Below the pieces are notes generated by a model. The model saw nothing but the letters and a program-made list of their open reading frames with translations. It was not told where the DNA came from and did no database searches. From Henricia sp. BOLD:AAB3569 (lineage: Eukaryota > Echinodermata > Asteroidea > Spinulosida > Echinasteridae), in contig JBBELK010000009.1 of assembly GCA_037783545.1 (NCBI GenBank), forward strand, positions 3,100,001 through 3,164,000: 64,000 nucleotides of DNA, in the 5' to 3' direction. The translations under genes were made by a program, and so were the position numbers. Positions 14,401 through 46,033 of the stretch are shown one piece after another. Positions within the stretch are counted from its first letter, which is position 1; each line of letters opens with the position of its first letter.

Positions 14401-17400
14401 ACAAAGGTATTTTCTGGAAAATATGGTATGTGTTGCCAAAATACCCCCTTTACCGTGGAAAGACTCATATCTATACATATGCCCGCTGAACCTCTATATA
14501 GTGGCCACCTGTTTATTCCGGCCACTTTTTGTCGGTCCCTTGGGTGGCCACTTTATCCCCTTCAATGCACATGTGTACATTTGTTAAAAGGGACTTCTTT
14601 TTCTGTCCAAATTCCTGTGACTTAATGGGATATACAAATTAGAAGAAACCTGTTTATACCAGCTTTCAAGAAACAGACCCACCACCATGTCCCACTAACC
14701 TTGCCATCTGAACCCATACTGAGGACAGACGTTTCATCGAGACTGAATTGTGCAGCGTAGGCCTGGCCGGAGTGAGCATGCCAACTCAGCAAGATCTCAG
14801 AACGCTGCATGTCTGGAAATAACGAGAGAGAAATCCAATTTACAGGCATCTTGCTGAGACTGAACTGTGCAGCGTAGTCCCCAAAATTGCCATAACTGTG
14901 CGGTGGCCGCACGGTAGAATATGCTAGCCGTGAGACGATCTCAAGGTTTTTGCTCGTCGCAGGGGCTTACGATTTGTATAACTTGACAAACTTTTTTTCG
15001 GAAATCACAAGGCCGTAGGCCGCAACCCCGCCGCATGTATCAAAGGACGACGACGCACGGAGACCTTGCGGCTGCCTCACAGCGTCCTTGCGGCGGCCGC
15101 AACAGGTGTATTTAAGATACGCACCAAACACCTGCCTGGCTTGCCCTAATTAACTCTGGGATATTAGTGGTAAATTTGTTTCTGATTGGAATCTTACCAA
15201 ACACACGAATCATGCCATCAGCTGCCCCCGTAACCAAGAGATGGCCGTTGTGGTTGAAAGCTGTACAGTTTACACAACCAGAATTGGCTGTCATTGCCAG
15301 CTCATTCTGAAAATGGTCAAAAGAAATGACAAATGATGATATAAGTGCGAAATTCCACGAATTTAGGCCTTAATGAGCGTAAATTAGAAGTTTTTTTTTT
15401 CCTTTCTTTTTTTAAAGAAAAAAAACAGCGTGGAGGAAATATGGTGGGAAAGGATACACTACAAAAAATAAAAACTGAATTACCTCGGATGGAGAGTTAG
15501 TTTGTAATTTTGTGACTTTTATTGCATCTGTTTCAATAAACCAAATTCTCCTTATGCAGCTTTTACTCAAAGCGACGCTCGTCAAATTTATGTGCATCAA
15601 ATTTACGCTCGTTTACGCGCAAAAAGGTTCAGTGTGAATTTAGCCTAAACTATGAGCCATTGAGGCTACAGCTCTGCGAAAATAACACTCAATACGTATC
15701 CTATTCCACAATGTGAATGGAAACCGCGAACGTACCGTGACTTTCATCTGTTTGATATCACAAACCAGCAGTCTGGACGAGACGGCCGTGGACGGGAGAC
15801 CGGACGGTTGATGGAATGATTGACTGGCGGCTGAGCAGATGAACGTTGAGCCGTTGGGGCTACAGCATAACGATACCGCCCTGCCAAGACAAACATAAGA
15901 CAAATCAAAGTAAACTAATGCGATCTTCTAAATTCAAGTGTGACATTCCGAAAATTTTATTTTAAAATGTACCAAGATTTTGCTCGTGTAATTTGAATTG
16001 ATATAGTACAGGTGCTACAGGGTACGTAGAACTAGCAGCTACCTTTTACAGAAAGGAACAGGGCCAATTTCATAAAGCTGTTTAGCAAAATAATTTGCTT
16101 AATCCCAAATTTGTTTGCTTTATAAAAATGGTCAAAATTATAAAAATAGTCAAAATTGTATATCAACTTGTGTTTTTAGCAAGAATAGCAGAACACCAGT
16201 CAATCATAATACACATCACATAAGATTTTGCTAAAAACCCATTTTTATGAAGCAAACAAATTTTGGATTAAGCAATTTTTTTTGCTAAACAGCTTTATGA
16301 AATTGGCCCCTGGTCAGCAAGACTTGAAATGTAATCGTAAGAGTTTGAAAATTACTCGGAGTCGCCCCTTTACATCACTAAACAATTTTCTTGATTATAT
16401 ATAATAAAAAAACTATGATACCAAAATATGCCTATTTGTTAATAATTATTTTAAATATTCTACATTATTTAGGAATTTTTGTGTTGTGTGATCCCAAGTG
16501 TACCAGTATTTAATAAAAAAAAAGCTTGACTGCAGTCCCAATTTCTGGGTGTCGCTAATTGCATGAAAATTAACAATTATCATAAACCAAAAGACAGAAG
16601 CAATACCGACCTTGGATGAGATGCGTCCGTCTCCAAATCACAAACTGGTTTCTTGGCTTCTGTGTCATATATCTTGACTAATCCATGCGAACTGCCAAGC
16701 AGGAGCTGGGAGATTAAAGATAATATACATAATTGGTAAACTGTTACATATAGTTTTACCCCCCTGTGTGATTGAAGATATGCATGATAAAAACCAACCT
16801 AAGCAAAAACCAGTTCCGTAAAAAAAAAAGGGTTTACAGTCATTTCGCCTCGAAACCACTTCGACCTGAACCACTTCGCCCTGAACTACGGCCTGTGCAT
16901 GAGGTTGTTTTGGGGTGAATTGGCTTTTGGGCGAAGTAGTGTTTGGACGAAGTGGTTTGGGGGCGAAATGGCACTTGGGCGAAGTGGTTCAGGACGAAGT
17001 GGTCCGGGGCGAAATGGTTTTGGTGCGAATTGAATTTACGTCTCGCGAGACGAAAAATAATTGTTTCGCTCATTTCTCAAAAACTATAGCACTTCAGTCA
17101 AAACCATTTTGGGGAAAGTTTTCTACTATCGTCATGTTTATATCGTGTAAGTTATGTGTAAATCTGTGAACATTTCCGATTCTTCGAGATACTAATCATG
17201 TGTACTGCCTTTAAAACTCAGGTAGGGTACATGTAGCTCAATGTTATGTAGTCCACAAGGTCATAGCAAAGGTCAAAAGGTCAATGTACCTTAAAATAAT
17301 GGCAGATTTGAAATTCATGTCAAATTCTCTTTTCAGCAATAACAGCAATGGCTCAGTAAAATTTGAGATTTGGTGCTGGTAGGATCCCAATCAATAAAGT

Positions 17401-23400: not shown

Positions 23401-26400
23401 ACCCCATTTTCCCCATGGTTTTGCGATTTTGATACCATATCATGTGTCATATTTTTCTCATGTTTAATAAACTAATTTAAATCCGGTTACATTAAAGCAG
23501 TGCAGTGATTACACCAATCTTTTTGCTTCAACATCCAAACTGGTGATTACAAATTTTCTTTCCATGGATAGTATTTTTGGGAGCTATTTTATATCATTGT
23601 TAAGGTGAAACAAAATCAATTTTCTAGAAAACTCTGAACACACTTCTTTCTTTAATCATAGAATAAACTGGTACAATTAGGGACACACTGATTTTCTATT
23701 TCTTAGAAAAAGACAAGGTCCCCTTTTTACAAATTGTGCATCTTGTCTGGGAGACCCGTGAACTCGGCAGTCGAGTGGTTACATCTGTCTGGCATGCAAG
23801 AGGTTATGGGTTCGAAACCCACCCAAGCTTACAATGAGCTTTTAGCATATGTTCTCAGGAATAGCACTTAGTTTAAAGTACATATAGATGGGTGGCGCCA
23901 TTGGCAGCCATCAGCCAGAGACACCAGGGAATCTCCTAACTCTTCATGAAAGAGTGCTCTGAGATATTTTAAGCGCGTTACACAACGGACTGGACCAACA
24001 GCTTTACATCCCTTCCGAAGGATGGAGCAAGTGTGTTTAAGTGCCTTGCTCAAGGGCACAGGTACCATTGCCACATCACACTTTAGAAGTCTACGTTAAC
24101 AAGGATTAAAACAAGGAAGTGTATTTACCAAACCATTCCTTCCACTCCGACTGGTTCTGTATCTCACCACACATCTTCTCAAAGAATTCTGTGACTTTGT
24201 CAGAGCGGTTGGTCTGGACTGCATTGACAATGTACAACCTGGGAAACCAACAAACCAGTTTAGTAAATGTTACTGTCGGAACAACTTCTCTTTGTGTATA
24301 TGCACCTTCGAGTAATGTGCTCAGCATTCAGAGGTGTATATAGATAGACCTTTTAAACTGGTGGTCGAGTTAGGGGGAGGTTTTAAAAACGTTTATAACA
24401 ATGTATGGTACATTCAAACAGAACTAAAAATGGTCTAACTGGAAACGGTTTATCTCAGTTATGTCTGAAAGGTCTACATAGAATGGAAACAATCTAATTC
24501 TGGTCTATAGAAACTCCTCAAAAAAAGTTTGTAAAGTCAAGTTTGACTGACAATTTCTCTCTTGTTACTAAATCATTTCCCTTGAATTTGGTATCATTGG
24601 AAAGCCCCGTTATTCCTCTTTACAGTGATGTGTCATTTGTTATGATTAATCAATTGGGGGGATGTGCAGTATAGCGGAATACAGGGGTGGGTGGAAAGTG
24701 AAATGTCACAAAATTCACTGCTATTGTCATGCAGTGCATTCCCCTTTTGCTTGGAGGATGGGAATGTGTCAATGCACTTTTTGACAATAGCAATGCATTT
24801 TGTGACATTTCACTTTACACCCGCCCCCGTATTCAGCTGTGCTGCACATCCCCCGATTGCTTAATCATAACAAATGACACATCATCGTAAAGAGGAATAA
24901 CAGGGCTTTCCAATGATATAAAATTCAAGGAAAATTATTTTGCAACAAGAGATAAATCGTCAGTCAAACTTGACTTTCCGAACTTTTTTGAGGAGTTTAG
25001 AAGGTTGTAGTCAAGTCTATCACAAGTCCAGAGCCGATAAAACTCACAAGTCCGCCACAAGTCCAGTAACAAGAAGCAAAGGATAAACACGCACAAAAGA
25101 ATGCCTTTGTTGGAGTTCATTTGAATAGCTTGCGACTTGAATTAAGACTCAGGGACTTGTGAAGGCTTGTGATGGACTCGACTACAACCCCGCTATATAG
25201 ACCATTGAGGAGAGACATAAACCGTGTTTCGTTGAACTCAAGTTGGACCCTCTAGTACGGTGTTTTGAGAGTTTTGAGAGACTAAGTCGTCAGTAATCCA
25301 TACTGTACATTAAGGACTCATTCAACCATGCAAAAGCGCAGAGGGAGTAGCTGGTTCACTTTTTTTGTTCAACAAAAGCTTAATGCGTCAATTTGTAAAT
25401 TTATTGGTGAAGTCAGGATGCAGCTTTTTAGTTTAAAGGCAGTATACATGATTGGTATCTCGAAAATCAGAAATGTTCACAGATTTATGCCTAACTTACA
25501 CAATATAAACATGATGACCGTAGAAAACTTCCCCTGAAGTGCTATAGTCTTTGAGAAATGAGTAAAACAATTAGTTTTCGTCTCATGAGACGAAAATTCA
25601 ATTCGCCCCAAAACCATTTCACCCAAGTGCCACTTCGCTCCCAAACCACTTCGCCCGAGTGCCATTTCGCCCCAAATCACTTCGTCTAAACACTACATCG
25701 CCCAAATGCTACTTCTCCCCAAAATCACTTCGTGCACAGGCCGTGGTTCAGGGCGAAATGGTTCAGGGCGAAGTGGTTTTGGGGCGAAATGACTGCAAAC
25801 CCTTTTTTGAATGTTTTCTCAAAAGTTAGACGAAGTACGGAGCTGGTTTTTGCTCAGGTTGGTTTTAATCATACATATCTTCAATCACACAGGGGGATAA
25901 AACTATTTGTAACAGTTTACCAATCATGTATACTATCTTTAAACGCTCAGTTTTGCAGTTAGGAAAAGTCCCCCGCAGTGACCACAGAATGATAGACTTT
26001 TTTCAAGTACTGTCTGGACATAGCAGTAGTCTGATAACATGAAGAGGACAAATTTCCCAACCTTAGGATGCTGACTTCCAGCTTCCGAACATTGGAAATT
26101 TGGTTGTACTCCAGACGAGAGAATATCCTTTTGTCTAGATGGTCCATGTAGCTGCGTAGTCCCGCCAAGTCGTAACTCCATACTGAGCTTAGCAGTTGTT
26201 CCAATACCTTGTCAACCTGGGGAGCAAAAGATTTTGAAAATTGGGTTCAATATAAGGAAGACCTGAGGAAGTATACCACTGTGCCTTATAGCTCAGCTGG
26301 TAGAGCATCTGCCCAACGAGTCAGAGGTCTCGGGTTCGAATCCCGATAAGGCCCTTACAATTTTTCTCTCATCTCAAGTTTCATTAATTTCAACATTTTA

Positions 26401-29400
26401 TTTATTTATAAGAAATGTGAGATTTGTTCTTCCAGTGCACATCTATAATCATTCAAACAAAAATAACACAGTACAGTACAATAATTTAAAAAAAGTCGCC
26501 CATCACCACTAAAACCACACCACACGAATGGCAAGAAAATTATAGACCGTATTTAATAGCTGCCATCTTGTAGGACAAGTATTGATATTTAAATTGGTCA
26601 ACAATGGAAGCACAAAATGTGCAACCATGCTGGTCTTCACGGAACAAAGAAACTGCACTACAAGATGGCAGCTATTTGATACGGTCTATTACCTGACTAC
26701 CATTACCACAGATACATACCATTTTCTCTGTCTAACCCGGCCCCTTGGGGGTCACTCTCTACTGAACTATAAGCCATGTGCATTCTCACTAAAAAAGGGG
26801 CCCCCTATTGCAGACAAATACAAAATATCCAACCCTTATTGCAGGCACGAGTGCCTGCTTTTGAAGGCAAAAAAACACCCCCAACCTGCAAAATTTGAAC
26901 GCGCAGCCCGCTTACAAAAACGGTGCGTGGTAACTTTTCACAGAATATCGTCAAAGCAGTTCCGATTCCGAAAGTGGTGCCCGGAGTCTCATTCGCCACA
27001 ATATTTACACGATAGCTCTTTATTTAGAAATGAAAACAGGAGAGGGTCTATTGCGGAAGCGTATATTGATTCTGAAGAGTAACCTATTTGCTCCTTCGCA
27101 GATCCTCGCAGGCCTGCTTTTGAAGGCAAAAAAAAAAATCCTATCACATGAAATTTGGAATGCACATGGATTCATACTGGCATACAGAGTGACAACACCG
27201 GCCCCCGGGACCTGGTCCTGTCTGAAAAAAATTACAAATTTGTTGGTCTCCGTAGTACTGTAGATTGTCCGAACATAGCCGAAATTACAGTTATAAAAAA
27301 CTGGGAGAAGCTATGCCAAACAAAATAACTGACAGTCTGACACCGACTCACACAATTCAATCTTATAAAATTTTAGGTCGTGTTGTGTTCAATAATAACA
27401 TATCTTAATGTTAGTACACAGTACATATATATACATATCACAAAGTCAGTTGTACTCGATACAAGATGTACCCACGTGTATCAAAGGTGTAATAGACAGC
27501 CAAAGTGTGACGTGCGTTGCCATGGTAATTGGCTCTAAACATCATGGCCGTCGGTTCAGTGATTTTTAGTTTAGAGCAAATTGCCTAGGTAACTAACAAA
27601 ACATGACGTATTCACTTTGGCAGTCTATAGGGTACGGTACATACATGTAGCTTGCATATTCCTAAAAAAAACTCAGGAAAGTAGTTTAATCGCTGCGTTA
27701 AAAAAAATTCATGAAAAATCAAGAGCAAAAGTGCAGATGATAATGTCACTAAAATCAGCATGTACAGAAAAAGTGAAAATCTGACACAATCTGGTCTGAA
27801 ATGCAGTGTGGCAGAAAAAAAGTTGTAAATTGCACACTGTAGTACAAGGTGAAAAGATAGAGCGCCCTGACATCAACAAATAACTTATTTACATATTTAC
27901 AGATTATTTTGGCCAAAAATACACTCAAGTAACATGGCCTTGGCATAACCTTTGATCAATTTCTGACCAATAGACCTTTTGCACAAGCGGCCATGACAGG
28001 AAGCAGGTTTAAATGTGACACAAGTGCGTACTCGTGCATGATGCACGGTGACAATGTGACTGTCCCCCGTCATGGCCGCCTGTGCGTTATGCATCATATT
28101 TCTTGTATTTAACCTTATACCAATTTTGCGAATATCTTCTTACATTTATGGTATAGACCGTATCCAATAGCTGCCATCTTGTAGGGCAGTTTCGTTGTTC
28201 AGTGAGGACATGCATGGTTGAACATTTTGTGCTTACATTGTAGACCAATTTAAGGTTGCCCTACAAGATGGCAGTTATTCAATACGATCTATAAAATACC
28301 AGGAGCTTCAAGGCAGAAGGCATTTTTGAAGCCCATTGATAGCAGAGTCTTTCCACGGTAAAGGGGGCATTTTGGCAACACAGACCATATTTTCCGAAAA
28401 AATACCTTTGTCTAGTCTCAAAAAAAAAGAAATAAGTTTCAGTTGTTCTGAAGAGATAACTTAGGCCCAAAAAGGGTTACAAATAGTGTGACAACATGCC
28501 TTCCTAAAAACCATTTGAACAAATTTCCAATATACGCTCGTAACAGGGACGGACACTTGTGTTACTTTTTAGGCTGTCCCGGTTACGAGCGTACCGGTAT
28601 ATTGGTAATGGGGTGTTATGGCCGAGCGGTCTAGTGCGTCGAACTCAAGTTCCTGTGCCAAGTACTAGAATGTGGGTTCAATTCTGGGCCGTGTGGCACT
28701 TGTGTTCTTGAGCAAGGCACTTAATCACACTTGCTCCGTCCTTCGGAAGGGATGTAAAGCCGTTGGTCCAGTGTGTTAGGTTTCGGTAACGCACTTTAAA
28801 GATCCCAGAGCATTCTTTCGTAAAGAGCAAGGGGAGGGATTCCCCGGTGTCTCTGGCCATTTCTAATTCAACTTAGAAGTTGATAGTTATTCAAATATCT
28901 GTGTTAATTGATCCAATTCCTGTAATTGGCTGTCCTTCCACTGTTGGATGTGGTGAATAAATAAACCCTTTTTGGGCCCAAGTTATCTCTTCAAAACAAC
29001 TGAAACTTAGTTCTTTTATTTTGAGACCAGACAAAGGTATTTTCTGGAAAATATGGTCTGTGTTGCCAAAATGCCCCCTTTACTGTGGAAAGACTCACGT
29101 ACATGTATGGTTCAGTGGTTTGCAACAATTTGTAACTCATAGTGTCGGATATACTGTATGATACTTTTACACGATACAGTCACTCGCAAAGTAGTCTGCA
29201 GGCAGGTTTTCTGTGGAAATAACCGCTTTCTGGATATATGGGGAAACTTTCGCGTGGCACTGGCGCTCATAACGTGCGACATACAGTTTCTGATCAATGC
29301 TGTCCCAATTAGTGATAAGGTCCGGGTGTTTTTTCAGGAAAACCATGACAGGCTTTGATCGCGGAATTTTGACGAGTAGCACTTTGCCGAAACTGGTCAT

Positions 29401-32400
29401 CGTTGCAATAGCTGCCTTGAATTCAGATTTGTCAAGTTTTCGGTGTTTCCTCGGTCCGGATGAGATAAAACTTCGGAATGTCATCAGTTTGCCTGGGAAT
29501 AGCGCGATCGCTTGCATCAATTCACATGGGGAAGATTGGTCTTCGAGCTTCACTGGAAGAGTGACATCCACGACCTGAATAACAGACAGTGAAAGTTAGT
29601 ATATCGTCGCCATTATCTGTGTAAAATACACGTACATCATTAGCTATAACCCCAAAATGTTTCCATTTCTGAAAATGACAGCAGAGAAGGCTATATGTGA
29701 CGGGCTCTAGGAAAATGAGTCACAAGTCGCGCTGGCTAGTATTCTTTTTGCGACCATAAAAAGAAATCTGTGGCATTTCTACGCTCATTAAAATACCTAA
29801 ACACAAAAGAAATTCCAGGCGTAACACAGACATTCCAGGGGGAACACGGACATTCCAGGCGGTATCTGGGCACCGCCAGGAATTTCCATTGTGTTTTGGT
29901 ATTTTATTGAGCGTGGATTTGCCGCGGATTTCTTTTGATGGTAGCAAAAAGAATACTAGCCAGCGCGACTTGTGACTCATTTTCCTAGAGCCCGTCACAT
30001 ATATGGTACAATTGACCTTTATCATGATCAGACAAGATCATGTGTGGTCTAGTGGGTATACAGCCGTGCTCGTGATCAATGGGCTATAAGTTCGAGCCCC
30101 ACTTGTGCCAAAGTGTTGTGTCCGTGGGCAAGACACAATCTTAATTGCCTCTCAACCCAAGCAATATATGGAGAGCCGTTAGTGGGAAATGCCACAATCT
30201 AACTGCTGATTGTGCGCCGTGGCCACCTAGTTGAAGCCAAATGGTTCTGGTGATTTCCTGATGGCAGGGGTAATAATGGCAACAGCACCAGGTGTACCCC
30301 CGCAGGGACAGACATGTGCGCTATATAAGTATCCACCATTATTAGCACGATCAGCGCGTGGAATTTTTTGTTGTTTTTGAAAGAATCACTGTCTGCGCTG
30401 CACATTTTCTTGGTCACACCACGTGTGTGTCATTGTGATACATACATGTACAATGAACAATTTCAACACGGGACCAAACTATTTTTTTCTGCAAGCCTCG
30501 CTTTAGTTACGTTCATTTGAATAGGGAACGAGTTCAGATAAGCCGTGTCCGCAATGGACTTGTTTTTTGGAAGGTTTTACCGAGACGATGGTAAAATGAA
30601 AAATGGCTAAATTTTACTGCTGTCCGCATTTGGACTTTTTGACACAGTAAAATTTTACCGGGACCTTGGGAGAGCATGCGCAGTGTCCCTTCGCAGTTTG
30701 ACCTTCACGGCCCGGACGTACGCTTCCAGAGTGCTTTTACCGGCTCGCTGTGTCTGCATTGGACTTTTCGTCTCAGGAAAAGTTCCCTGGTAAATTTTCT
30801 TAGGCAGAAGTTGGCCAGGAAAAGTAACCGCTGGACTCAGGAAAAGTTACTGAGATGAAAGCATCCTAGGCTGTCCGCATTGGACTTAAAATGGGAAAAG
30901 TACCCATCGTCTCACTCTCGGTAAGTTTTCCCAAAAAAAGTCCAATGCGGACAGGCGTATAGCCGCGCCGTGATAAAGGTCTATGAAATGATACGAACAT
31001 TGCCAAAGTAATCCGTTGGAAGATTTTCCTTGGAAATAATCGCTGCCTGGATAGCTTGGGAGACTTTCAAGTTGCACTGTTGACTGAAACGTGCCGCATA
31101 CAGTTTTCTGTCAATGCTGTCCCAATTAGTGATAGTATCTGGGTGCTTTTTCAGGAAAACTCTGACAGACGTTGCTCGCGGAACTTTGACGCGTAGCACT
31201 TTGCCAAAGTCAGCCATTTTGGCAATCGTTGCCCAGAACACGGAGCAGTTTATTTTTCGGTGTTTTCTCGGTCCAGATGAAATGAAACGTCTGAACGTCA
31301 CCAGTTTACCTGCGAATAGCGCGATCGCTTGTAGCAATTCACATGCGGAAGGTTGGACTTCAACTTTTACAGGATTGCTATCCGGAACCTGCTGAGTACA
31401 GAAAAGAAAAGAGAGATGCAAGTTTACTTGTAATGAACATGGGGACCCTAAAACCCTTTTTGAGGCCAAATGGGGTAGATGACAGGGAGAAAAACACCCA
31501 GAGAAAAATTGTGTTCTTAGGGAAAACCTAAAAAGTATACAACTGTGCTTCATAGCTCAGCTGTAGAGCATCTGCCCATTGTGTCAGAGGTCTTGGGGAA
31601 ACCCAAGGGAGTATACCACTGTGCCTCTAAGTTTAGCTGGTAGAGAATCTGCCCGGTGAGTCACAGGTTTGGGGGAAAACCTGAGAGAGTATACCACTGT
31701 GCCTCTTAGTTCAGCTGGTAGAGAATCTGCTCAGTGAGTCAGAGGTCTTGGTGGAAACCTGAGGGAGTATACCACTGTGCCTCTTAGTTCAGCTGGTAGA
31801 GAATCTGCCCAGTGAGTCAGAGGTCTTGGGGAAACCCAAGGGAGTATACCACTGTGCCTCTAAGTTTAGCTGGTAGAGGATCTGCCCAGTGTGTCAGAGG
31901 TCTTGGGGAAACCCAAGGGAGTATACCACTGTGCCTCTAAGTTTAGCTGGTAGAGGATCTGCCCGGTGTGTCAGAGGTCTTCAGGAAAACCTGAGGGAGT
32001 ATATGGGTACCACTGTTCCTCATAGCTCAGCTGGTAAAGCATCTGCCCGGTGAGTCACATGTTTGGGGGAAAACCTGAGGAGATTATACCACTGTGCCTC
32101 TTAGTTCAGCTGGTAGAGAATCTGCCCAGTGAGTCAGAGGTCTTGGGGGAAACCTGAGGGATATACCATTTTGCCTCACAGCTCAGCTGCTAGAGCATCT
32201 ACCCAGTGCGTTAAAAGTCTTGGAATTTGTAGCGAAAACCCAAGGGAGTACACAGTAACAGCACTGTGCCTCATAGCTCAGCTGGTAGAGCATCTGCCCA
32301 TTGTGTCAGAGGTCTTGGGGAAACCCAAGGGATTATGTGGCTTATAGCTCAGCTGGCAGAGCGTCTGCCCGCGCTGAGTCAGAAGTGTCGGATTGAAATT

Positions 32401-35220
32401 CCCATAAGGCATGGGTTATGCAGAATTAAAGAAAATTCTAATTTAATATTTTTGACTCTAAATACATGTATGATGCTCTCAAATAATACATACCGGAACA
32501 TGTACATGTACACTGTCGAAGTAGTCATCGGGCAAGTTTTCTTCAGGAGGAATCGCTGCAAGGGTACCTCGGGAGATTTTCTTGTGGCACTGTTTATCAA
32601 AACGTGCGACGTACAGTTTTCTGTCTACGGTTCCCCAATTAGTGATGGTGTCCGGGTGTTTTTTGAGGAAAACGGTGACAGGCCTCACTCTTGGTACCCT
32701 GATGCATAGCACTTTGCCAAAGTCGGTCATCTGTTCAGTAGCCGTCTGGTATTCGGAGCAAGTTACACTTCGATGTTTCCTCGGCCCAGACGACGTGAAG
32801 CTTCGGAATGTCACAAGTTTACCGGGGAATAACGCGATCGCTTGCATCAACTCGCATGTGGGACTGGACGGTTGGAGGCGCTCTTCAAATTCCATAGAAA
32901 GCACGCCATCTACAACCTGCAGTGGAAGGGAACAACAATACATAGTGTACATTTATTTTTAATGAACATGAGAGGAAATATAATAAAACAGTAGTGCTGT
33001 AATATTTCAAGCACTATTTTAAGTGTCCAGTCCTTCATAAAACAATCGATTTTGTAATGCAGTCATTATCACAGACAGATACCTGTACATTTATTGTACA
33101 CTTAGGTCTACCTAAACCGAGATGTAAATCGAGATTAAATCAGTGATTTAACCTAGATGAAATAAGAGATTTAAAACTAAATATGATTTACATGTGTACG
33201 GGTTTGTACATGTAGTAGCACCATGTGAAAAGTATGTGTGGTTCTGAACAGAACCGGCAAGTGTGAACTCAACGTTTCAAACGGTGCGCTACCATATGTT
33301 CATGTTCAGGAGAAGGGCCGGACTTGTGATGTGTCAGAGATTTTGGGGCAATGTGATTGAAATCATGATTTAAACATGCAAAATAAACTAAGGTGATTTT
33401 AAATCAAACAACCTTGTGTAAAGTGAAATTAAGGTTTCTCAACCTTAAAAAAAAAAAAAAAATGTTTAATCACAATATTTTAATAGAGATGAGAGAACAT
33501 ATCGACACAAAACACGATTAATGAGGCCAGTACAATTCTGCCATGTCACCACATTTTTGGCATCTATAAACTCGACATGGACTCTCTAAAACTAAAATAA
33601 TTAATACCATACACTTCATAACAATGTGACATTTGATGCCACTGGAAAATAATGTTTGTTACCGCAACTTACTGACCCCTTATACTGTGTTTTGTGTCAT
33701 AAGATGTTGAGAAAACATGCAGGGATACTGTTAGGCCACGAGAAAAAAAAAAATCCAGTTTACCGTCCAAGGGGTTTAACGTTTTGAAAAATGATGAGGC
33801 TTTTTTTCATTTTTCATTATTCAGGCTGATGCACAGTCAACTTTAGACAAGTGAAGCAGAAGCTCGGCCTATTATTCCTAGATAGATGCAAGTCCAAGAA
33901 ATGAATCACTTTAATAGTCCTGACTCCTGTCATCTAGTTGTCCCTCTTCAAATATCTTCTATATTGGCTGCTCTGTACAGCGGGCACACTGTGGGTAGTA
34001 GTCTTCATGCTGAGCGTCCGCATCCACATATTCCCCATTTTGACGCACTGGGCATGATATGGCATATAAACTTCCGAAGCCCAACTTGTCAAAACACATT
34101 GCTATTTTAGGCTAAGTACACTCGTGCTTGGTCTATCTTTCAGTGGGGTAGTATTTTTCCAAATAATTATTTTTATTTTTAAATAATGAATTTTTTGGGC
34201 GGGGGCCACGACAGCATGCGGGCGGTGGACGGTAAACCGGATTTTTCATTCTGTCGGCCTTTTTTTACAAAAGACCAGTCTCTAGTCTGTAAAGTACGGC
34301 AGTTTATATGTTTTTAAAAAAATAGGCCTACTGCACATGTACCTGTGTGACAGCCTTTCAGGCCTCATAGTGTGTAATATGCGAGTATGGCTTCGAGACT
34401 ACCGTTGTCCATTTTGGCTGGAGCTGGGTTATTTTCATCTTGGCCATCCAAAACGAGTAGCAAGCGTACACAAACACATGGATCATATTCATACAGGCGC
34501 GATTCGCACAATAAAAATAAAACTGTGAATGTTGGAGAAACAAAACAGCCGCGCCGAAAAAATACAATAGGGCCTATAATTTCCTCTTCTGGCGTGTCGT
34601 ATTTTCAGTACATGTCCGTTTCCCATTCTGACAAAGTGAATTGGTGGGCAATGATAACCAAGGTGTATAAAGTGACGAATGGTACATTTCCTGTACATGT
34701 ACCCCAATGAAAGTCGATTGTTTCCTCCAACACTGCTCGACACAAAACACAGTAAAGGACACATTATAACTTAGGTATGAATTCCGTTCACTGGTCGCCA
34801 CTGATGTGCCGTGTGGAAAGTCTATGGGACATGACAGAATCGTATTTTCGAGGAAAATGTTGAATGTTTCATTCCTAATACACGCGCTACGCTCAACGGT
34901 AAAGTTGACTCGACTTTGAAGTAGAGTTGGTCGACGGACGAGTTGGTTCGACGGACGAGTTGGTAAACGGTCGAGTTGACTTAAAGTGTAAGCCAGGCCT
35001 ACGTACACAAACTTGGCTCGATGTCCGGAAACTGGGCAGCCTTTCCTTCCCAAAACTCCACTCCCTGCTTTCGTCAAACCACCTCTTTCACACTTACCCG
35101 GAACTTCTTATCCTTGTCTAATTTGACCTCTGCATCGAACGTCTTCAGCGTATTCGTAAAGCCTCGAAAAAGAAGATAATCTCGAACCAGTTCGTCCGTC
35201 CTTTCCACCGTGTCAGCCAT
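11435..35220 (-). CDS. WDR91: WD repeat-containing protein 91 (WDR91), complete, 16 coding exons
   Basis: Coding exons in transcript order are 35098-35220, 26062-26216, 24129-24238, 23178-23300, 22483-22565, 22087-22181, 20245-20488, 18897-19251, 18469-18601, 17639-17735, 16611-16705, 15736-15880, 15198-15306, 14700-14812, 12001-12198 and 11435-11590. They sum to 2334 nt (777 residues plus stop), with all phases consistent; human WDR91 is 747 residues. The start ATG opens [20 protein letters not shown], a near match to the LisH-like N-terminus. Residues about 171-230 are coiled-coil-like, a low-complexity linker follows, and WD40 repeats run from about residue 430 to the end (for example [23 protein letters not shown]). 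In animals WDR91 acts with WDR81 on endosomes, binds Rab7 and restrains the Beclin-1/PI3K complex during early-to-late endosome conversion. One intron is AT-AC U12-type. Intron 1 (8.9 kb) hosts three unrelated paralogous exons and most of the repeats. The exon model is from reading only, but identity is secure. Confidence 0.96.
11700..11880. mobile_element. Repeat of the CGTCCCGGTTACGAGCG family
   Basis: CGTCCCGGTTACGAGCGTAT followed by TTGTACACAGGGTTTTTAG and a tail with AAAATATGGTC. Other copies are at about 12570-12890, 14050-14465 and 28320-29095. It falls in the last WDR91 intron. Confidence 0.65.
12402..12545 (+). repeat. Purine-only G-rich low-complexity tract
   Basis: Almost uninterrupted G and A with runs of up to about 14 Gs, for example around 12465-12485. 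It lies in a WDR91 intron between 12198 and 14700; on the transcribed strand of WDR91 it is C/T. Glycine-rich and proline-rich open frames here are artefacts. Confidence 0.9.
12570..12890. mobile_element. Repeat of the CGTCCCGGTTACGAGCG family
   Basis: CGTCCCGGTAACGAGAGTAT at about 12681, TTGTACACAGGGTTTTTAG, then the TTATCTCTTCAGAACAACTG block shared with 14050-14465 and 28945-29095. An inverted partial copy precedes it at 12565-12660. Confidence 0.65.
14050..14465. mobile_element. Palindromic element, complete copy of the CGTCCCGG family
   Basis: Two inverted halves meet at about 14240: GGGACGGACACTTGTGTTAC / CGTCCCGGTTACGAGCG. Each half carries the AACTTATTTCTTTTATTTTG and AATATGGT blocks. 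This copy shows what the element at 28320-29095 looked like before a SINE entered it. Confidence 0.72.
16070..16310. mobile_element. MITE, GGGCCAATTTCAT family
   Basis: Left GGGCCAATTTCATAAAGCTG, right its inverse ending ATGAAATTGGCCCC. Further family members are at 48461-48700 (complete), 19292-19720 (degenerate) and 36147-36340 (one-sided). Confidence 0.8.
16712..17216. mobile_element. Dispersed repeat with internal GGCGAAGTGG minisatellite
   Basis: The outer blocks (TTTTACCCCCCTGTGTGATT and ATATCGTGTAAGTTATGTG) are shared with 25435-25955 and 58361-58840. The middle holds many variant units of GGCGAAGTGGTTCAG / GGCGAAATGG in both orientations. The short peptides it encodes are artefacts. 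It is in a WDR91 intron. Confidence 0.8.
18142..18373. mobile_element. MITE, GGGTCTTTCTATAAATT family
   Basis: Starts GGGTCTTTCTATAAATTAGG and ends CTAATTCATAGAAAGACCC. Related to 61605-61862. WDR91 intron. Confidence 0.75.
19292..19720. mobile_element. Degenerate GGGCCAATTTCAT element
   Basis: GGGGCCAATTTCATAAAACA at the left and AGGATTTATGAAATTGTC at the right, with TTACGCTTAATCAAA inside. WDR91 intron. Confidence 0.5.
22566..23177 (-). other. WDR91: U12-type AT-AC intron of WDR91
   Basis: The exon ending at 23178 reads ...CAG TCT ATG C and is followed on the minus strand by ATATCCTTC, nearly the full U12 AT-AC donor consensus. The 3' end has a U12 branch-site match CCTTGAC, about 15 nt before the terminal TCTAC at 22566. 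Splicing AT to AC gives [15 protein letters not shown], colinear with the human protein at this point. No GT-AG pair keeps both the conserved residues and the frame. Intron length is 612 nt. Confidence 0.93.
23354..23655. mobile_element. MITE of the TTAAAGGAGCG family
   Basis: Left TTTAAAGAAGTATGTCCAGA, right CTGAACACACTTCTTTCTTT. Interior GATACCATATCATGTGTCAT is shared with 3076-3351. It begins 53 nt upstream of the WDR91 exon 23178-23300. Confidence 0.65.
23757..24085. mobile_element. tRNA-like fragment and reversed SINE body
   Basis: At 23757-23835 on the plus strand there is a tRNA-like block with a box B, GGGTTCGAAACCC. At 23880-24085 the minus strand carries the conserved SINE body motif TTGAGCAAGGCACTTAA followed by CCTTCGGAAGGGATGTAAAG. 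The same body is on the plus strand at 28690-28860. No functional tRNA can be folded. Confidence 0.65.
24511..24998. mobile_element. 488-bp foldback element
   Basis: Arms of about 200 bp: AAACTCCTCAAAAAAAGTTT at the left and its inverse ending GAACTTTTTTGAGGAGTTT at the right, continued by GTCAAGTTTGACTGAC and ACAAATGACACATCA. WDR91 intron. Confidence 0.85.
25435..25955. mobile_element. Second copy of the GGCGAAGTGG-minisatellite repeat
   Basis: Same outer blocks as 16712-17216 in inverse orientation. Interior units such as CACTTCGCCC and GGCGAAATGG are present. Confidence 0.8.
26266..26357 (+). mobile_element. Pseudo-tRNA (tRNA-derived SINE head)
   Basis: GCCTTATAGCTCAGCTGGTA starts a tRNA-like fold with a perfect 7-bp acceptor stem (GCCTTAT/ATAAGGC), a 4-bp D stem (GCTC/GAGC) and a perfect T arm (TCGGG TTCGAAT CCCGA). 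The anticodon arm does not form a 5-bp stem with a 7-base loop, so I do not call a functional tRNA. It matches the unit of the array at 31541-32410 and may be close to its founder. Confidence 0.7.
26541..26689. mobile_element. MITE, ATAGACCGTAT family
   Basis: TATAGACCGTATTTAATAGC at the left and its inverse ending GATACGGTCTAT at the right; the interior has AATGGAAGCACAA and CTTCACGGAACAAAG. Confidence 0.8.
27491..27629. mobile_element. MITE, ATAGACAGCCAAAGTGTGACG family
   Basis: AATAGACAGCCAAAGTGTGA at the left, TTCACTTTGGCAGTCTAT at the right. Interior GCCATGGTAATTGGCTCTAA. Copies also at 37522-37676 and 56069-56237. Confidence 0.8.
27970..28085. mobile_element. MITE related to 245-390
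   Basis: TAGACCTTTTGCACAAGCGG at the left and CATGGCCGCCTGTGCG at the right form inverted ends. The interior ACTCGTGCATGA and GTGACAATGTGACTG also occur in the 245-390 element. It sits in WDR91 intron 1. Confidence 0.6.
28152..28292. mobile_element. MITE, ATAGACCGTAT family
   Basis: TATAGACCGTATCCAATAGC at the left and GCAGTTATTCAATACGATCT at the right. Confidence 0.78.
28320..29095. mobile_element. CGTCCCGG palindrome split by a tRNA-Leu-like SINE
   Basis: The flanks 28320-28605 and about 28962-29095 are the two halves of the palindrome seen intact at 14050-14465. The middle, 28610-28960, is a SINE: a head with GGTGTTATGGCCGAGCGGTC (box A of a type II tRNA) and GTGGGTTCAATTCTGG (box B), then TTGAGCAAGGCACTTAAT and CCTTCGGAAGGGATGTAAAG. 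Confidence 0.78.
29167..29574 (-). CDS. Paralogous exon copy 1 of the same domain, terminal-exon-like
   Basis: A 136-codon open exon after the acceptor TTATTCAG, phase 0, beginning [13 protein letters not shown] and ending DYFASDCIV and TAA. It shares [51 protein letters not shown] and ENLPADYF with the two upstream copies. The natural stop and the lack of a good donor suggest a 3' terminal exon. An AATAAA on the minus strand lies about 150 nt downstream (near 29016) but inside a repeat. The three copies are ordered 3-2-1 along transcription, each with an acceptor in phase 0, as expected for tandem exon duplication. Confidence 0.57.
   Translation of the reverse strand, partial: VVDVTLPVKLEDQSSPCELMQAIALFPGKLMTFRSFISSGPRKHRKLDKSEFKAAIATMTSFGKVLLVKIPRSKPVMVFLKKHPDLITNWDSIDQKLYVARYERQCHAKVSPYIQKAVISTENLPADYFASDCIV
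29692..30003. mobile_element. Foldback element, 312 bp
   Basis: TATATGTGACGGGCTCTAGG is inverted at the other end as CCTAGAGCCCGTCACATATA. The arms continue for about 100 bp (AAATGAGTCACAAGTCGCG). The interior repeats GACATTCCAGG. Confidence 0.85.
30013..30983. mobile_element. GACCTTTATCA element with two later insertions, next to exon copy 2
   Basis: Left end GACCTTTATCATGATC, right end CCGTGATAAAGGTCTA. Inside are a tRNA-derived SINE (30035-30340, with ATAAGTTCGAGCCCCAC as box B) and a GTCCGCAATGGACTT foldback (about 30545-30955). The simple 271-bp relative is at 54204-54474, and 30343-30526 matches its interior inversely. Confidence 0.7.
30981..31388 (-). CDS. Paralogous exon copy 2 of the same domain, stop at a transposon end
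   Basis: A 136-codon open exon after a tandem NAGNAG acceptor (TCAGCAG), starting in phase 0 with [13 protein letters not shown]. It shares [36 protein letters not shown] and ENLPTDYF with the neighbouring copies. After DYF it reads GNVRIIS and then a TAG at 30981-30983. That TAG lies in the terminal sequence TAGACCTTTATCA of a mobile element whose other end is at about 30013 and whose shorter relative is at 54204-54474. The stop may therefore come from the insertion, not from the original exon. Function is unknown; it may be a live terminal exon or a damaged one. Confidence 0.55.
   Translation of the reverse strand, partial: VPDSNPVKVEVQPSACELLQAIALFAGKLVTFRRFISSGPRKHRKINCSVFWATIAKMADFGKVLRVKVPRATSVRVFLKKHPDTITNWDSIDRKLYAARFSQQCNLKVSQAIQAAIISKENLPTDYFGNVRIIS
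31541..32410 (+). repeat. Tandem array of 11 tRNA-like units of about 78 bp
   Basis: Each unit reads GTGCCTC..AGCTCAGCTGGTA, GAGCATCTGCCCAGTGAGTC, AGAGGTCTTGGGG, AAACCCAAGGGAGTAT. Most are 77-79 bp; units 7, 9 and 10 are longer. The D-arm (box A-like AGCTCAGCTGGTAGAGC) is kept. The box B position has become TCTTGGGGAAACC, so the units are not tRNA genes. The last unit ends ATAAGGC, like the single copy at 26266-26357. Confidence 0.88.
32494..32916 (-). CDS. Paralogous exon copy 3 of an unrecognised domain, in WDR91 intron 1
   Basis: A 141-codon open exon preceded by a good acceptor (CACTGCAG) and followed by a GTATGT donor at 32493, phase 0 at both ends. It opens [10 protein letters not shown] and carries motifs shared with two further copies downstream on the same strand: [45 protein letters not shown] and ENLPDDYF. 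I do not recognise the family. The run of a beta-like GKVLxxxVPR segment followed by VFLKKHP loosely recalls a winged-helix fold of the Egalitarian/EXD1 kind, but this is only a guess. It may belong to a separate gene nested in the intron, or be spliced to WDR91 exon 1, whose donor is also phase 0. No start codon or upstream exon could be fixed. Strong amino-acid conservation between copies suggests coding selection. Confidence 0.6.
33756..34240. mobile_element. Element with CCAGTTTACCGTCC terminal repeats
   Basis: CCAGTTTACCGTCCAAGG at the left and GGTGGACGGTAAACCGG at the right. No transposase seen in the roughly 450 bp between. WDR91 intron 1. Confidence 0.6.
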
Positions 35221-40980: not shown

Positions 40981-43900
40981 TCACATAACGGAGCACATTG
41001 AACTCCTCGTCTGATTGGACGGTTTTCTTGGTAATGGGTCGTTGCCGTAGTTGACAACTTCGGCTTTTACCACTTTCTGAAAAACGTATAATGGTTAAGG
41101 AAAATCGGCATGTCAAGACTTATTAGAGCCATATAATTCGCCTTTTGCGTGTTTCACATGGTGTAGTGACGTGTTTTCCTTTACATCTCCAATGGTAGAT
41201 GCTAGGCGCACAGCTTGATCACTTTCCATATGTCGTGTTTGTTTAATCACAGATATGAATCAAGATCCAGAGTTGTTTTACAGCGCAGAAACAAACAAAA
41301 TTGCTCTAAACTAGAAGCAAGTTCGATCAAGCGACTATAGTTCACTATAGTCGACTAGAGTCCCTCGTACAACAGGTATTTTCCGTTAATTGAGAGACTC
41401 TAGTCGACTATAGTAAACTATAGTCACTTGATCGAACTTGATCCTTGATCTCAAATCACGTGAATTGAATATTATTTACCACATTTGTCAAATTTCTGTA
41501 CCAAATTTCATCCATGACATTCATCGTAAATAAACAGGCAGCTTAAATTTGTTTATATCGTGTGTTGCCTCTGAAAATTGAAACGACACGATTTACTGAC
41601 ACACAAAAATATTAGCGATGTTTATGTCGCCATTTTAGATCTAGCGCTGAACCACGTTGCAAGAAGGATCCCAGAATTAGAAATCTCAGTTCTCGATCAG
41701 GATCTGCGCTAAATGAACGAGTTCATCACAGATCTGCGCAGATCAGGAACCGGATCCGTCCAAAACAAATATGCCCATAGAGCTGCATAGAGTCTAATCG
41801 GACGGGGCCTAAGCCATGAAAAGGATACATTTGCTTGTTCCATTTCTGCCCTTGATAGTTTGATGCCCAGGATTTCAGCTGTGATCTTCTGGAAACACAA
41901 ATCAACCTGAGCATAGAAACAAAAAGAAATTAAAATGACGACATCCATTTCAATGCAATATATATTGCTCACAAAAAGATTTTTCTAAAATTTCTAAATT
42001 TTGTTAGTCGAGAATATTTTTCATGTTTTCTACAGTAATTAAAATAATAGAACATAATCTAATGAGCTCATGCCATCGCTCATGCCTTTTTATTATTATC
42101 TATTTTACTGCAGAAAAACACACAAAATTGGGGATTTAGGGAAAGTTCACCAATGGCCTCAGGCTCAGGCCGGCTACTGAATGCCAAATTGGCCCTAATG
42201 CCCCTTCAAGATATACACTCTCCGAGGCCAACTTGGCCAGCATGCCCTATAGACCGTATCGAATAGCCGCCATTTCGTGGGCCACCTTTTGTTACTTAAA
42301 CCGTTTAACAATGGAAGCACAATATGCACAACCATGCATGTCCTCAAGGAACAAAGAAACTGCCCCACGAAATGGCGGCTATTCGATACGGTCTATCCTC
42401 TTAATTTTCATGAAGCTTGTATGTACTAATAACCAATACATATTAAGAACAAAGTGGGCCTTGGACAAAATCAATGCCACAGTGACCTGCCCTTATTTCT
42501 TTGCACAGAGTGACTTACCGTGTCTCCCGTCCTAGCTGATACAAAGTGACTTGAGAAGCCGTGGTCTTGTACCATACGCTGATGTTTCTCTGCTTTTACT
42601 GCTCTCATGTGCTCCAGATCCACTGAGGAGAATTAAATCAGACGTAATTAGCAATCAAATTAATTCAAAAAGATGGTCAGTGCCAAATGCTGAATAGTTG
42701 TAACCTGACCATGCTAAATGAGTTGGCAGGGTTCTCCACGAGATGTTTTGCTAGGGCGTGCCGCCCTACCTAATTTTTGTGCCGCCTGCGCAAAATCTCG
42801 ACCGCCCGAGCAAAATCCCAAGAAAAACGAACTGATGTCGCCCTCTGTTGACTAAATCCGTCTAACATAGTCGGGTACTTTGTTTACGCGCAGTTAGTAC
42901 GGCTTTTCACGTAGGGAGTACAGGTGCCCCACTCGGTACCGATCACAACAAAAAGACATCAAAGAAGGTGAATGCCCGTCGCGCGTCACTTGCGTTTGTG
43001 GTTTTTTAAATCCTTTTTTGTTCAACCGGCCGGAAGAGACATCGTCATGAATTTAAAAAAGAAATTTTGGAGGTGGAAGTGAACGAGTAAGTGGTGGGAA
43101 AATTTAAAAAAAAAAAAAAAACGTTGAGGAAAAAACGAATAGTGACAGTTTGTGATCTAAATTCGGATCTGTGACGATAGAAACACGTCCTTTATTATCC
43201 CTTCTTGGCCCGTGGAAAGGGTCTATTCCCTTTGAACACTCCCCACTATCAAAAAAATGTAAACAGCATGTCAACTTACTCTTATTGGCAACCAGAGCTA
43301 TATGAGGAAACCGTTCTTGATCCTTGAAGACCTCCTTGATCTTGGAATACCAGTCCTCAATATTCTCAAAACTATTATAGTTTGTGATGTCATACACTAA
43401 AAGTACACCCTGCAAAATAAATAGAAAAATCTTTAAATCTGGCTGTTTCAGGGTAGGAATTTCGTCACTGAGGGGCACTGCCATTGTGGTGTTTAGAAAG
43501 GGCACTTCCATTTGAAAATCAATAAGTCAATGAGAGGAAGGGCACCAAGGCCAAGACCAGGGGCAGTGGAGGCAATGGCCTCCGTGGCCTCCATGAAATT
43601 CCCACACTGCTTTTTACTAAATTACATAGGGCCAATGATCATGGAAAATGAACAGAATTTATGGAATAAAATCTAGTATTTTTAAAACATGAAATGAGTT
43701 ACTTTCCCATTTACTTTCTCATGTTTGGGATAATTTTCGGACCATACTAAACGCTAACCTTTGCTCCATAGATGTAGTTCTCCAGCATTTTACCTCCGAG
43801 TGTTTGGCCCCCGATGTCCCAAACCTGCAGCGTGACATGTGTATCTTCTGGTTGTAGAAAAAAGAATTTAACAATCAAAATGTTTTTAGGAAGCTATTGT

Positions 43901-45509
43901 GCAAAAAGCTGACTTCGTGTATGTTTCTAGAAAAAAAATCAATTAAACAATTTTTTTTCCAGATACCACACCCAAAACGCATGGATAAAACATTTTTAAT
44001 GGACTTTTTGATACTTCTAAATTGCCACTTTTAAGTTGTGCATTTGGATTATGGCTGTGCACCATCATCTTGAAATAACTTTGATGAAATCAAAATGAGA
44101 AATACTGACCTCCGATGACAATTCTCTTGAGAAAGAAATCCAGACCAACTGTTTGTTGGTACTGCTTGCCAAACTGGTCCTGAGAATATCTCGTTACGAG
44201 GGACGTCTGAAAAAGAATGCATGAGAGATTATATTGACAAGATCTTATTTTCGTCAACCACGGATAGAGTTGGGAGAAATTTAAGATCTCTAAATCCGAA
44301 TAAGGTGCAGTTTAAAAAGTCAACATACATGTACAGTACTATGTTGTTGTTGCTATGTGGTGCACGCCAATGCATAGCAACCAACAGTCTGGTGCTTTAT
44401 GCCATTCTCTCTAACCGTGAACACAATATTGTACTTCACACCCGTGTGCACCCAGCCACATTACATTTTAAATACATGTAGTCTGGTCATCTGGGATACT
44501 ATTAGTGTGCACGTGAAAGGAAATACATCAAGACATCAGATGCCACTCAAGTGAAACACACAAAGGCTGCGTTCGAGCGTGTACTCGTCTTAACACAAGT
44601 ATACTCATGCGCGCGCAAACGGCAAGAATAACGACACTCGGGTCAGTGATAGTATGCTCTCTCTTCCCCCCGAGAAATGGGGAGTGTGCTCTTACTCCTG
44701 ATGAGTGCCACGTGATTTGTACGAAGATGGCAAAATATGGGTGGAATTTTGGGCAAATTTTCTCAAGATGTCAACTCGATAACTGAAGTAACATCTCACT
44801 AAGGTTCGTTCTAGACGGCATTAATGATTCCGCAAAGGTTCTCAAAATTGTACGCCTGTGTTTTCTTCAGTTTCTTGTGAGCTGTTAAACAGCGTTTTTG
44901 TGCAGTCATAGCAATAGATAGCCATCTTGACTGATTGCCATTCGTGCATGCAGACTGCAGACTTGCTGTTCGCGTAAAGTGACCGGTGTGAAGTTGGTTA
45001 CTTATTCGACGTTCGACATTCAATATTCAATAAGGAGCCGTTACTTATTCAACATTCAATAAGGAGCTGTTACTTATTCAACATTCAATAAGGAGCTGTT
45101 ACTTAAGTTATGCACCTAACAATTGGTCGCCCCCCCACCCTGACCCATCCCCTAGGTGGGGGTTTGGTCACGTTTTTCATGCCCCAGGGTGGGGAATTTG
45201 ACCCTTTGAAATAAAATTTTCTGTGCATTTGTATGTCGAATAAGTAACAGCTCCTTATTGAATGTTGAATAAGTAACAGCTCCTTATTAAATATTGAACG
45301 TCGAACATCGAATAAGTAACCAACTTCACACCGGTCGTAAACCGACCAAAGTGCAGTACATACGCATTACTCCAGAGTAACGAGAGTGGTACACTCGAAC
45401 GCGGCCAAAAGGTTAATTGTTCACGTACCTTCCCCGACGCACCATCTCCAATAATCACAATTTTCAGTTGTTTCTCCCGCTGTGGACCCTCGCCGTCCGA
45501 ATCGGACAT
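40981..45509 (-). CDS. RAB28: RAB28 small GTPase, complete, 7 coding exons
   Basis: Exons are 45429-45509, 44110-44206, 43759-43847, 43280-43409, 42519-42622, 41829-41906 and 40981-41076: 675 nt, 224 residues plus stop, all phases consistent. RAB28 is a divergent Rab-like GTPase of membrane and cilium traffic. The P-loop GDGASGKT is at residues 21-28, WDIGGQ at 69-74 (the RAB28-typical DxGGQ switch II), ANKMD at 130-134 (G4, with Ala where human has Gly), and SARTGD at 161-166 (G5). The C-terminus ends SSMCSVM, a CaaX box expected to be prenylated as in human RAB28, which ends CAVQ. The start MSDSDGEG matches the human MSDSEEE opening. The last intron is U12-type. A nested palindromic element sits in intron 1. 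Length and motifs make identity secure. Confidence 0.96.
41077..41828 (-). other. RAB28: U12-type GT-AG intron of RAB28
   Basis: The donor after AAT at 41829 reads GTATCCTTT, the exact U12 GT-AG consensus. Near the 3' end TTTTCCTTAAC (41094-41104 on the opposite strand) is a perfect U12 branch-site consensus, followed by the acceptor TTTTTCAG at 41077. Splicing joins EMEQAN to [10 protein letters not shown], matching human RAB28. Intron length is 752 nt. The branch-to-acceptor distance is about 18 nt, a little long for U12 introns. Confidence 0.93.
41318..41440. repeat. Foldback of CAAGTTCGATCAAG and GACTATAGT motifs
   Basis: Perfect inverted ends CAAGTTCGATCAAG/CTTGATCGAACTTG with ACTATAGTCGACTAGAGTC in both arms. 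It lies in the RAB28 U12 intron. Confidence 0.85.
42249..42396. mobile_element. MITE, ATAGACCGTAT family (best-preserved copy)
   Basis: ATAGACCGTATCGAATAGCC is exactly inverted at the right end as GGCTATTCGATACGGTCTAT. RAB28 intron between 41906 and 42519. Confidence 0.88.
44564..45407. mobile_element. GGCTGCGTTCG foldback split by another foldback, in RAB28 intron 1
   Basis: Outer ends GGCTGCGTTCGAGCGTGTAC and GTACACTCGAACGCGGCC match the uninterrupted copy at 3570-3980. Inside at 44981-45336 is a second palindrome (GACCGGTGTGAAGTTGGTTA and its inverse) whose arms carry tandem TTACTTATTCAACATTCAAT units. Confidence 0.82.
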
Positions 45510-46033
45510 TTTCCCGAGTTGGTTAGTTTTACAGCACTGAACACATTCAATACCAATGTATGCAGACACGTTAATGTATCACCGCATTCTTACTTCAACA
45601 TGTTCAAAGAGAGTACAACAGTTTCAAACACTTGCAGAAATCGGTTGCATTGGCCGAGTTACTCACATAATGAAATATGATTCCAGAATAGGGACGAACT
45701 GTTTACGTGTACGTACTTGTAAAAATCTCTAAAAAGTACAAAAATGCTTGGCCTGCATATGTTGCGAATTAAATATCAGATCTGTCATGCTTTGCGTATT
45801 AATATTGGTGTACTGTTCGATGGTACTGTTGAACATCATTTATCACATCCGGGGAGATACCGTGTGTGTAAAATAATCTTGCTGCCGGTCCATTGCAAAC
45901 CTGAAAAGATAAAAAAATTGATAACAAAATTTAGGTACGAATGCATAAATGTTGGTCTATTAATTTGATGAAATATGTATAGGAGTCGTCTAAAGTTGTC
46001 AGCAACATTTTTGTTCACATAAATGTTATTGTT

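Follow-up and report, generated by a model that had tools for sequence, protein, structure and literature searches.

In the host-transposase fusion genes of Cosby et al. 2021, according to a passage of a review (PMC8290160), a foreign gene within a host intron supplies a splice site, and a host exon is joined to its domain. Intron 1 of WDR91 in the sea star Henricia sp. BOLD:AAB3569 appears to hold a similar arrangement, a foreign gene with a splice site of its own whose domain could be joined to a host exon. Unlike in those fusion genes, the candidate captured piece here derives from a DUF3987-ATPase gene, whose last exon it forms, rather than from a transposase; it is triplicated, and the fusion is a prediction.

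DUF3987 (PF13148) is an AAA+ ATPase domain for which passages of one paper (PMC5862659) predict a role as replication helicase in bacterial and archaeal mobile elements. All of the DUF3987 literature that we found, judged by title, concerns bacteria, archaea or phages. Fuller relatives in the sea star genome carry the ATPase at a score over the Pfam cut-off. The three exons described here, E1–E3, differ from such ATPases in that they encode a separate C-terminal domain unmatched by the Pfam model, and the ATPase part that lies near them is broken.

The obscura group of Drosophila carries tandem truncated P-element repressor genes. E1–E3 resemble these in being tandem and truncated, in stemming from a gene that handles DNA, and in keeping a probable binding domain. 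They differ in deriving from another gene and in lying inside a host intron, and repression by E1–E3 is hypothetical.

Three terminal exons inside WDR91 intron 1

We analysed a window of 64,000 nucleotides, by which we mean the whole stretch of DNA under study, on contig C9, and searched the genome assembly of 740.7 Mb in 2104 contigs. All positions below are those of the window unless another contig is named. WDR91 intron 1 lies on the minus strand, bounded by the exon 1 donor at 35098 and the exon 2 acceptor at 26216. Its boundaries and the exons within it are as follows.

35098 to 35220, minus strand: WDR91 exon 1, LisH-like, 41 codons, with donor CGG/GTAAGT in phase 0
32479 to 32916, minus strand: E1, terminal-exon copy 1, 438 nt or 146 codons (145 aa plus stop), with a phase-0 acceptor
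30981 to 31388, minus strand: E2, terminal-exon copy 2, 408 nt or 136 codons (135 aa plus stop)
29167 to 29574, minus strand: E3, terminal-exon copy 3, 408 nt or 136 codons (135 aa plus stop), with a phase-0 acceptor
26120 to 26216, minus strand: start of WDR91 exon 2, which begins [12 protein letters not shown] and closes intron 1; the low-coordinate end is approximate

Similarity searches support the identity of the host gene. All three PDB matches of the open frame at 14625–14966 with E ≤ 0.01 are WDR91, and exon 1 matched the Pfam family ARMC9_LisH at E 1.4e-5 with 25.6 bits, under the cut-off of 27.3. LisH is a dimerisation motif. Exon 1 matches the whole genome once, and we accordingly rejected the idea that the LisH exon had been copied next to other family members.

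Several further features lie in or near the intron. Next to the start of WDR91 exon 2, positions 26281–26355 of the plus strand hold a tRNA gene or tRNA-like sequence, with an Rfam tRNA score of 45.2 bits and no anticodon given by ARAGORN. A minisatellite in which a 77-bp unit, resembling a tRNA head by eye, recurs about 10 times spans 31534–32336; beside it, 32338–32412 matches the Rfam tRNA model below threshold (25.6 bits vs 29). Minus-strand exons at 43107–43526, 45258–45578 and 59926–60228 share their strand with WDR91, and from the list of open reading frames we take them to resemble RAB28 and a casein kinase I.

E1, E2 and E3 are related exons that begin and end alike. A sequence-only reading of the window had described three related open segments on the WDR91 strand, and all three indeed lie on the minus strand, with pairwise protein identities of 59–69% by tblastn (E1 vs E2 61.6%, E1 vs E3 59.3%). 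Among the motifs that it listed as shared, [14 protein letters not shown] and ENLPxDYF recur in all three copies; DFGKVL is present in just two, with SFGKVL in its place in E3. The last few codons, past DYF, align poorly between copies. The length of exactly 136 codons that it gave for two segments fits E2 and E3 when the stop is counted, E1 having 146. Each exon starts after an AG in phase 0, as that reading had it, matching the phase of the exon 1 donor, and each closes with an in-frame stop. The E2 acceptor reads CAGCAG; its first exonic base is 31391 or 31388, and the phase is unchanged between the two choices.

Homology among the copies is confined to the exon. Apart from the tRNA-like minisatellite, similarity around the copies stops at or inside the exon edges, and no upstream exon was therefore copied along with them. 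With a generic acceptor matrix, the intron has 477 AGs to rank, and the acceptors of E1, E2 and E3 come first, fourth and fifth. Second place goes to an AG at 33443, which lies in no recognised exon, and third to the other AG of the E2 CAGCAG. E3 scores 5.80, and the true WDR91 exon 2 acceptor scores slightly lower, at 5.74.

Signals at the 3' ends are less telling. ATTAAA lies 32 nt past the E1 stop and AATAAA 147 nt past the E3 stop; neither hexamer was found in the 1,072 nt downstream of the E2 stop. One or the other occurs within 150 nt of 23% of intron positions, which makes the E1 and E3 hexamers weak evidence. A GTATGT near the end of E1 raised the idea of an internal exon, which we rejected by eye as coincidental.

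The terminal domain belongs to no curated family that we could recognise by sequence, in agreement with the sequence-only reading, which had been unable to name one. No credible match to E1–E3 emerged from Pfam (best E 0.13), from PDB sequences (best E 0.42) or from PHROGs (best E 0.18), and an NCBIfam match of E3 (E 0.0032, 17.6 bits vs a cut-off of 90) was not credible. The isoelectric points of the domain in E1, E2 and E3 are 8.65, 10.25 and 9.43. An AlphaFold2 model built with three sequences has a mean pLDDT of 40.8, at which the order of elements is only suggestive; that the fold may be winged-helix-like is a guess from this model.

A DUF3987-ATPase gene family across the genome

Homologues of the terminal exon are spread over the genome. 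In a search with the E3 peptide, 19 contigs yielded 147 matches: after itself the best is E2 (68%), followed by E1 (61%), and the best elsewhere reaches 53%. We rejected chance open frames as the source of E1–E3 because of these matches, the best of which outside the window has E 5.2e-38.

On most of these contigs a relative of the terminal exon stands downstream of an ATPase exon. Six stretches have readable flanks (C1018, C521, C1433, C54, C475 and C615), and in these a second conserved exon terminates some 0.4 to 1 kb upstream; three of the contigs could represent a single locus as haplotigs. Genome-wide, the first part of the ATPase-exon protein has 23 matches on 15 contigs, all within the 19 matched by the E3 peptide. 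Read from the match tables, all 15 carry an ATPase match upstream of a terminal-exon match and on the same strand. The distance between them is mostly 1 to 2 kb, with about 8 kb on C175, about 12 kb on C6 and about 37 kb on C54. Despite its 37-kb match, C54 also carries a later portion of an ATPase exon 1 kb upstream of the terminal exon.

The upstream exon identifies the family. Pfam DUF3987 matches the exon part on C54 at E 0.0063, below the cut-off, and the exon part on C1433 has no match in Pfam. A search of the genome with the DUF3987 family found 14 places, the best at E 1.1e-14 and over the Pfam cut-off. On C1018 and C54 the intact upstream exon ends ATGCAG/GT in phase 0, and the family is therefore a gene whose ATPase exon is joined in phase 0 to the terminal exon. 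The terminal-exon acceptor is CAG in 13 of 13 rows listed, drawn from the window and eight other stretches. Several other family copies carry stops.

E1–E3 share with this family a homologous terminal exon that has a phase-0 acceptor and a stop. Upstream of them on the same strand there is only a broken DUF3987 remnant, and no intact exon. On these sequence grounds the locus is a descendant of the DUF3987 family and not a working full member. That E1–E3 are terminal exons had been one suggestion of the earlier reading, and it can be sustained; their origin can be traced to the last exon of the DUF3987-ATPase family.

Searches in viral sequence yielded no relatives. A tblastn search of phages with the C1018 peptide gave no match, and scanning viral contigs with alignment A1 turned up 38 pattern matches, of which none was confirmed. 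Reverse-transcriptase sequence (RVT_1 in L050:136-1539, with similarity in L046:1028-1423 and in L045) lies upstream of a DUF3987 exon in the same orientation, which may be chance in a repeat-rich genome.

The terminal exon also occurs in arrays. Contig C8 carries a tandem array of about 70 kb (C8:40965-111143, loci L032–L039) with 98 anchored copies of the terminal exon plus flank. Its spacing is 654–656 bases in 83 of 97 intervals, and the frame is open to a common stop in 70 of 89 regular units. Coding constraint in this array was not significant, 20 of 70 coding variants being synonymous vs an expected share of 0.227 (p 0.15); the array is a satellite derived from a coding exon. A second array, on C6 (C6:1813099-1832151, L041–L043), has a longer spacing and five of eight copies split between frames. 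It sits between two stop-bearing ATPase-exon matches, one of which is downstream of the array. A further smaller array lies near 1.0 Mb of C8. In the parts covered by our scan around the C8, C842 and C6 arrays, no ATPase remnant stood out from background. Judging from the arrays, the terminal exon has multiplied alone more than once. The old copies tested for constraint were those in the WDR91 intron only.

Repetition of another kind appears on contig C955, which holds mitochondrial COX1 three times at a spacing of 16,221 bases; C2104 is one 16,221-base unit. This suggests that C955 is the mitochondrial genome assembled head-to-tail. In a 700-base piece of this COX1, open under several genetic codes, AAA stands at sites where COX1 has asparagine and AGA at sites where it has serine, in keeping with the echinoderm code; flatworms also read AAA as asparagine. 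The gene may resemble that of a sea star.

Constraint on the terminal exons and decay of the ATPase exon

Comparisons among the copies point to purifying selection. By counting, dN/dS for the three pairs of exons is 0.305 (95% 0.18–0.48), 0.366 (0.22–0.58) and 0.353 (0.22–0.58), and none of 2000 bootstraps for any pair gave a value of 1 or more. Maximum likelihood gave 0.34, 0.31 and 0.47, and YN00 gave 0.42 and 0.43 for two pairs. The sequence-only reading had proposed this comparison and would have been undermined by values near 1, which we did not see: measured between paralogues, the candidate captured domain has a dN/dS of 0.31–0.47, well under 1. When neutral branches of 0.33 or 0.43 changes per site were simulated, the frame stayed open in 104 to 218 of 5000 runs.

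The three copies are old relative to one another and closer to each other than to the rest of the family. Synonymous divergence among them is 0.52–0.88, so the proposal that they are recently duplicated cassettes does not fit. Against other readable in-frame copies, in a comparison that leaves out all C6a pairs, dS is 1.8 or more, or saturated. E1–E3 fall together in a tree of 10 sequences with support 89/92 and in a smaller tree of 6 sequences with support 76/81.

This relatedness bears on whether E1–E3 arrived as three separate insertions of the 3' part of a mobile element, in which case their low dN/dS would reflect selection on parent elements elsewhere. Such an origin would suit a multi-locus family and a domain predicted, in passages of the paper cited above (PMC5862659), to be a mobile-element replication helicase in bacteria and archaea. 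Yet E1–E3 share one orientation, E3 matches E2 and E1 better than any other copy, the trio groups in the tree, and its internal dS is smaller than that to other in-frame copies. Nor were element ends found. The lone apparent boundary, on C1433, runs into a different high-copy repeat. We regard three insertions as very improbable. The C1433/C1018 boundary does not support mobility: the C1433 flank, with at least 47 matches, is itself repetitive, and the two contigs may therefore be haplotigs of one locus.

Upstream of E1 lies what we read as the remains of the ATPase exon.

34343 to 34524, minus strand: DUF3987 ATPase-exon remnant, about 57 codons from the end of the exon, interrupted by frame breaks and a TGA; upstream of E1

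When the C1018 exon end was aligned, allowing for frame breaks, with the 2.2-kb interval that separates E1 from WDR91 exon 1, the score was 85; 60 shuffles averaged 31.9 (sd 3.4) and reached no more than 40. With the same query, 12 other regions scored at most 38, among them two control stretches and the intervals that separate E1, E2 and E3. The C54 query scored 50 at the same end point as C1018, which is modest against its shuffle maximum of 44. The C615 query did not detect the remnant, scoring 26 elsewhere, at background. Strict scoring confines the match to 34524–34377, where it contains two frame breaks. When frame breaks are made cheaper it extends to 34349, with an extra break near 34375 and a TGA, and 29 of 57 residues are identical. 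Directly after the remnant stands a donor-like CAG/GTACAT, its GT at 34342. The larger, earlier part of the ATPase exon scored 41 in the interval between exon 1 and E1, which is background, and the ATPase-exon protein had no match on contig C9 at E ≤ 1e-3. The alignments thus give good support to the view that the ATPase exon of a DUF3987 gene decayed inside WDR91 intron 1.

Decay of the one exon contrasts with the integrity of the other. The remnant carries two lesions (strict) to four (lenient) in 148–176 bases, vs none in 1,245 coding bases of E1–E3. Were lesions evenly spread, the probability that all would fall in the remnant is 0.011 for two (strict), 1.9e-3 for three and 2.4e-4 for four (lenient), a comparison that hinges on the alignment of a short remnant. 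From this contrast, it appears that the terminal exons were retained once the ATPase exon had died.

The contrast addresses a period on which dN/dS alone says nothing, since constraint measured between copies may predate the death of the ATPase exon. E1–E3 could be the tandem alternative last exons of a DUF3987 gene that was under selection and was recently killed by loss of its ATPase exon, leaving them unused and as yet unbroken. A between-copy dN/dS that integrates time before the loss would agree with this, as would a remnant still identical to a relative at 29 of 57 residues, a family in which several copies hold stops, and a strict-alignment contrast of only p 0.011. It sits poorly with an ATPase exon that is mostly unrecognisable, with lesions that crowd into what is left of it and spare E1–E3, and with acceptors intact in three of three copies. 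We think such a dying relic unlikely.

Proposed use of the exons

E1–E3 are probably tandem duplicates of the final exon of a DUF3987-ATPase gene and have retained constraint, and a current function for them is likely. We propose that a DUF3987-ATPase gene once stood in WDR91 intron 1 in the same orientation as WDR91. Its ATPase exon would have decayed to a fragment, and its terminal exon would have risen to three copies that stayed intact under purifying selection. E1–E3 would still be in use, most likely as alternative last exons whose phase-0 acceptors are joined to the phase-0 donor of WDR91 exon 1.

Short proteins joining LisH to the terminal domain are our leading mechanism because WDR91 exon 1, on the same strand, is the nearest intact upstream coding donor recognised for E1–E3 and its phase-0 donor at 35098 matches their acceptors. 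We put forward the use of this donor tentatively, at somewhat less than an even chance. The resulting proteins would consist of 41 residues with LisH and a basic domain of 135–145 residues, perhaps nucleic-acid binding. Such isoforms would compete with full-length WDR91; they could also pair with it or carry a nucleic-acid-binding domain to it.

E1–E3 might instead be the last exons of a small nested gene that does not depend on WDR91 and whose own promoter and one or more first exons lie on the same strand, in intron 1 or upstream of WDR91. The ancestral gene owned an upstream exon whose donor-like CAG/GTACAT survives, and 2.2 kb of intron lie upstream of E1. Against this, the sole upstream coding exon recognised within the intron is broken, the contig holds no match to the ATPase-exon protein at the threshold used, and the sharp exon edges of the copies indicate that an upstream exon was not co-duplicated. 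On balance we hold a nested gene to be somewhat unlikely, and favour splicing from WDR91 exon 1.

Splicing from WDR91 exon 1 also admits a more ambitious role, which we consider rather improbable. The host may have captured a DUF3987 DNA-binding tail as last exons of WDR91, giving three LisH-tailed proteins that would pair through LisH and regulate, or dominant-negatively inhibit, full-length DUF3987 proteins encoded elsewhere.

The proposal makes sharp predictions, in that the splice junctions expected into E1–E3 are few and exact. It also points to an animal family of DUF3987 genes with a C-terminal domain absent from every library searched. If it is true, the WDR91 intron would represent exon capture caught with its parts still visible: a dead ATPase exon, a multiplied terminal exon and a host donor in the right phase.
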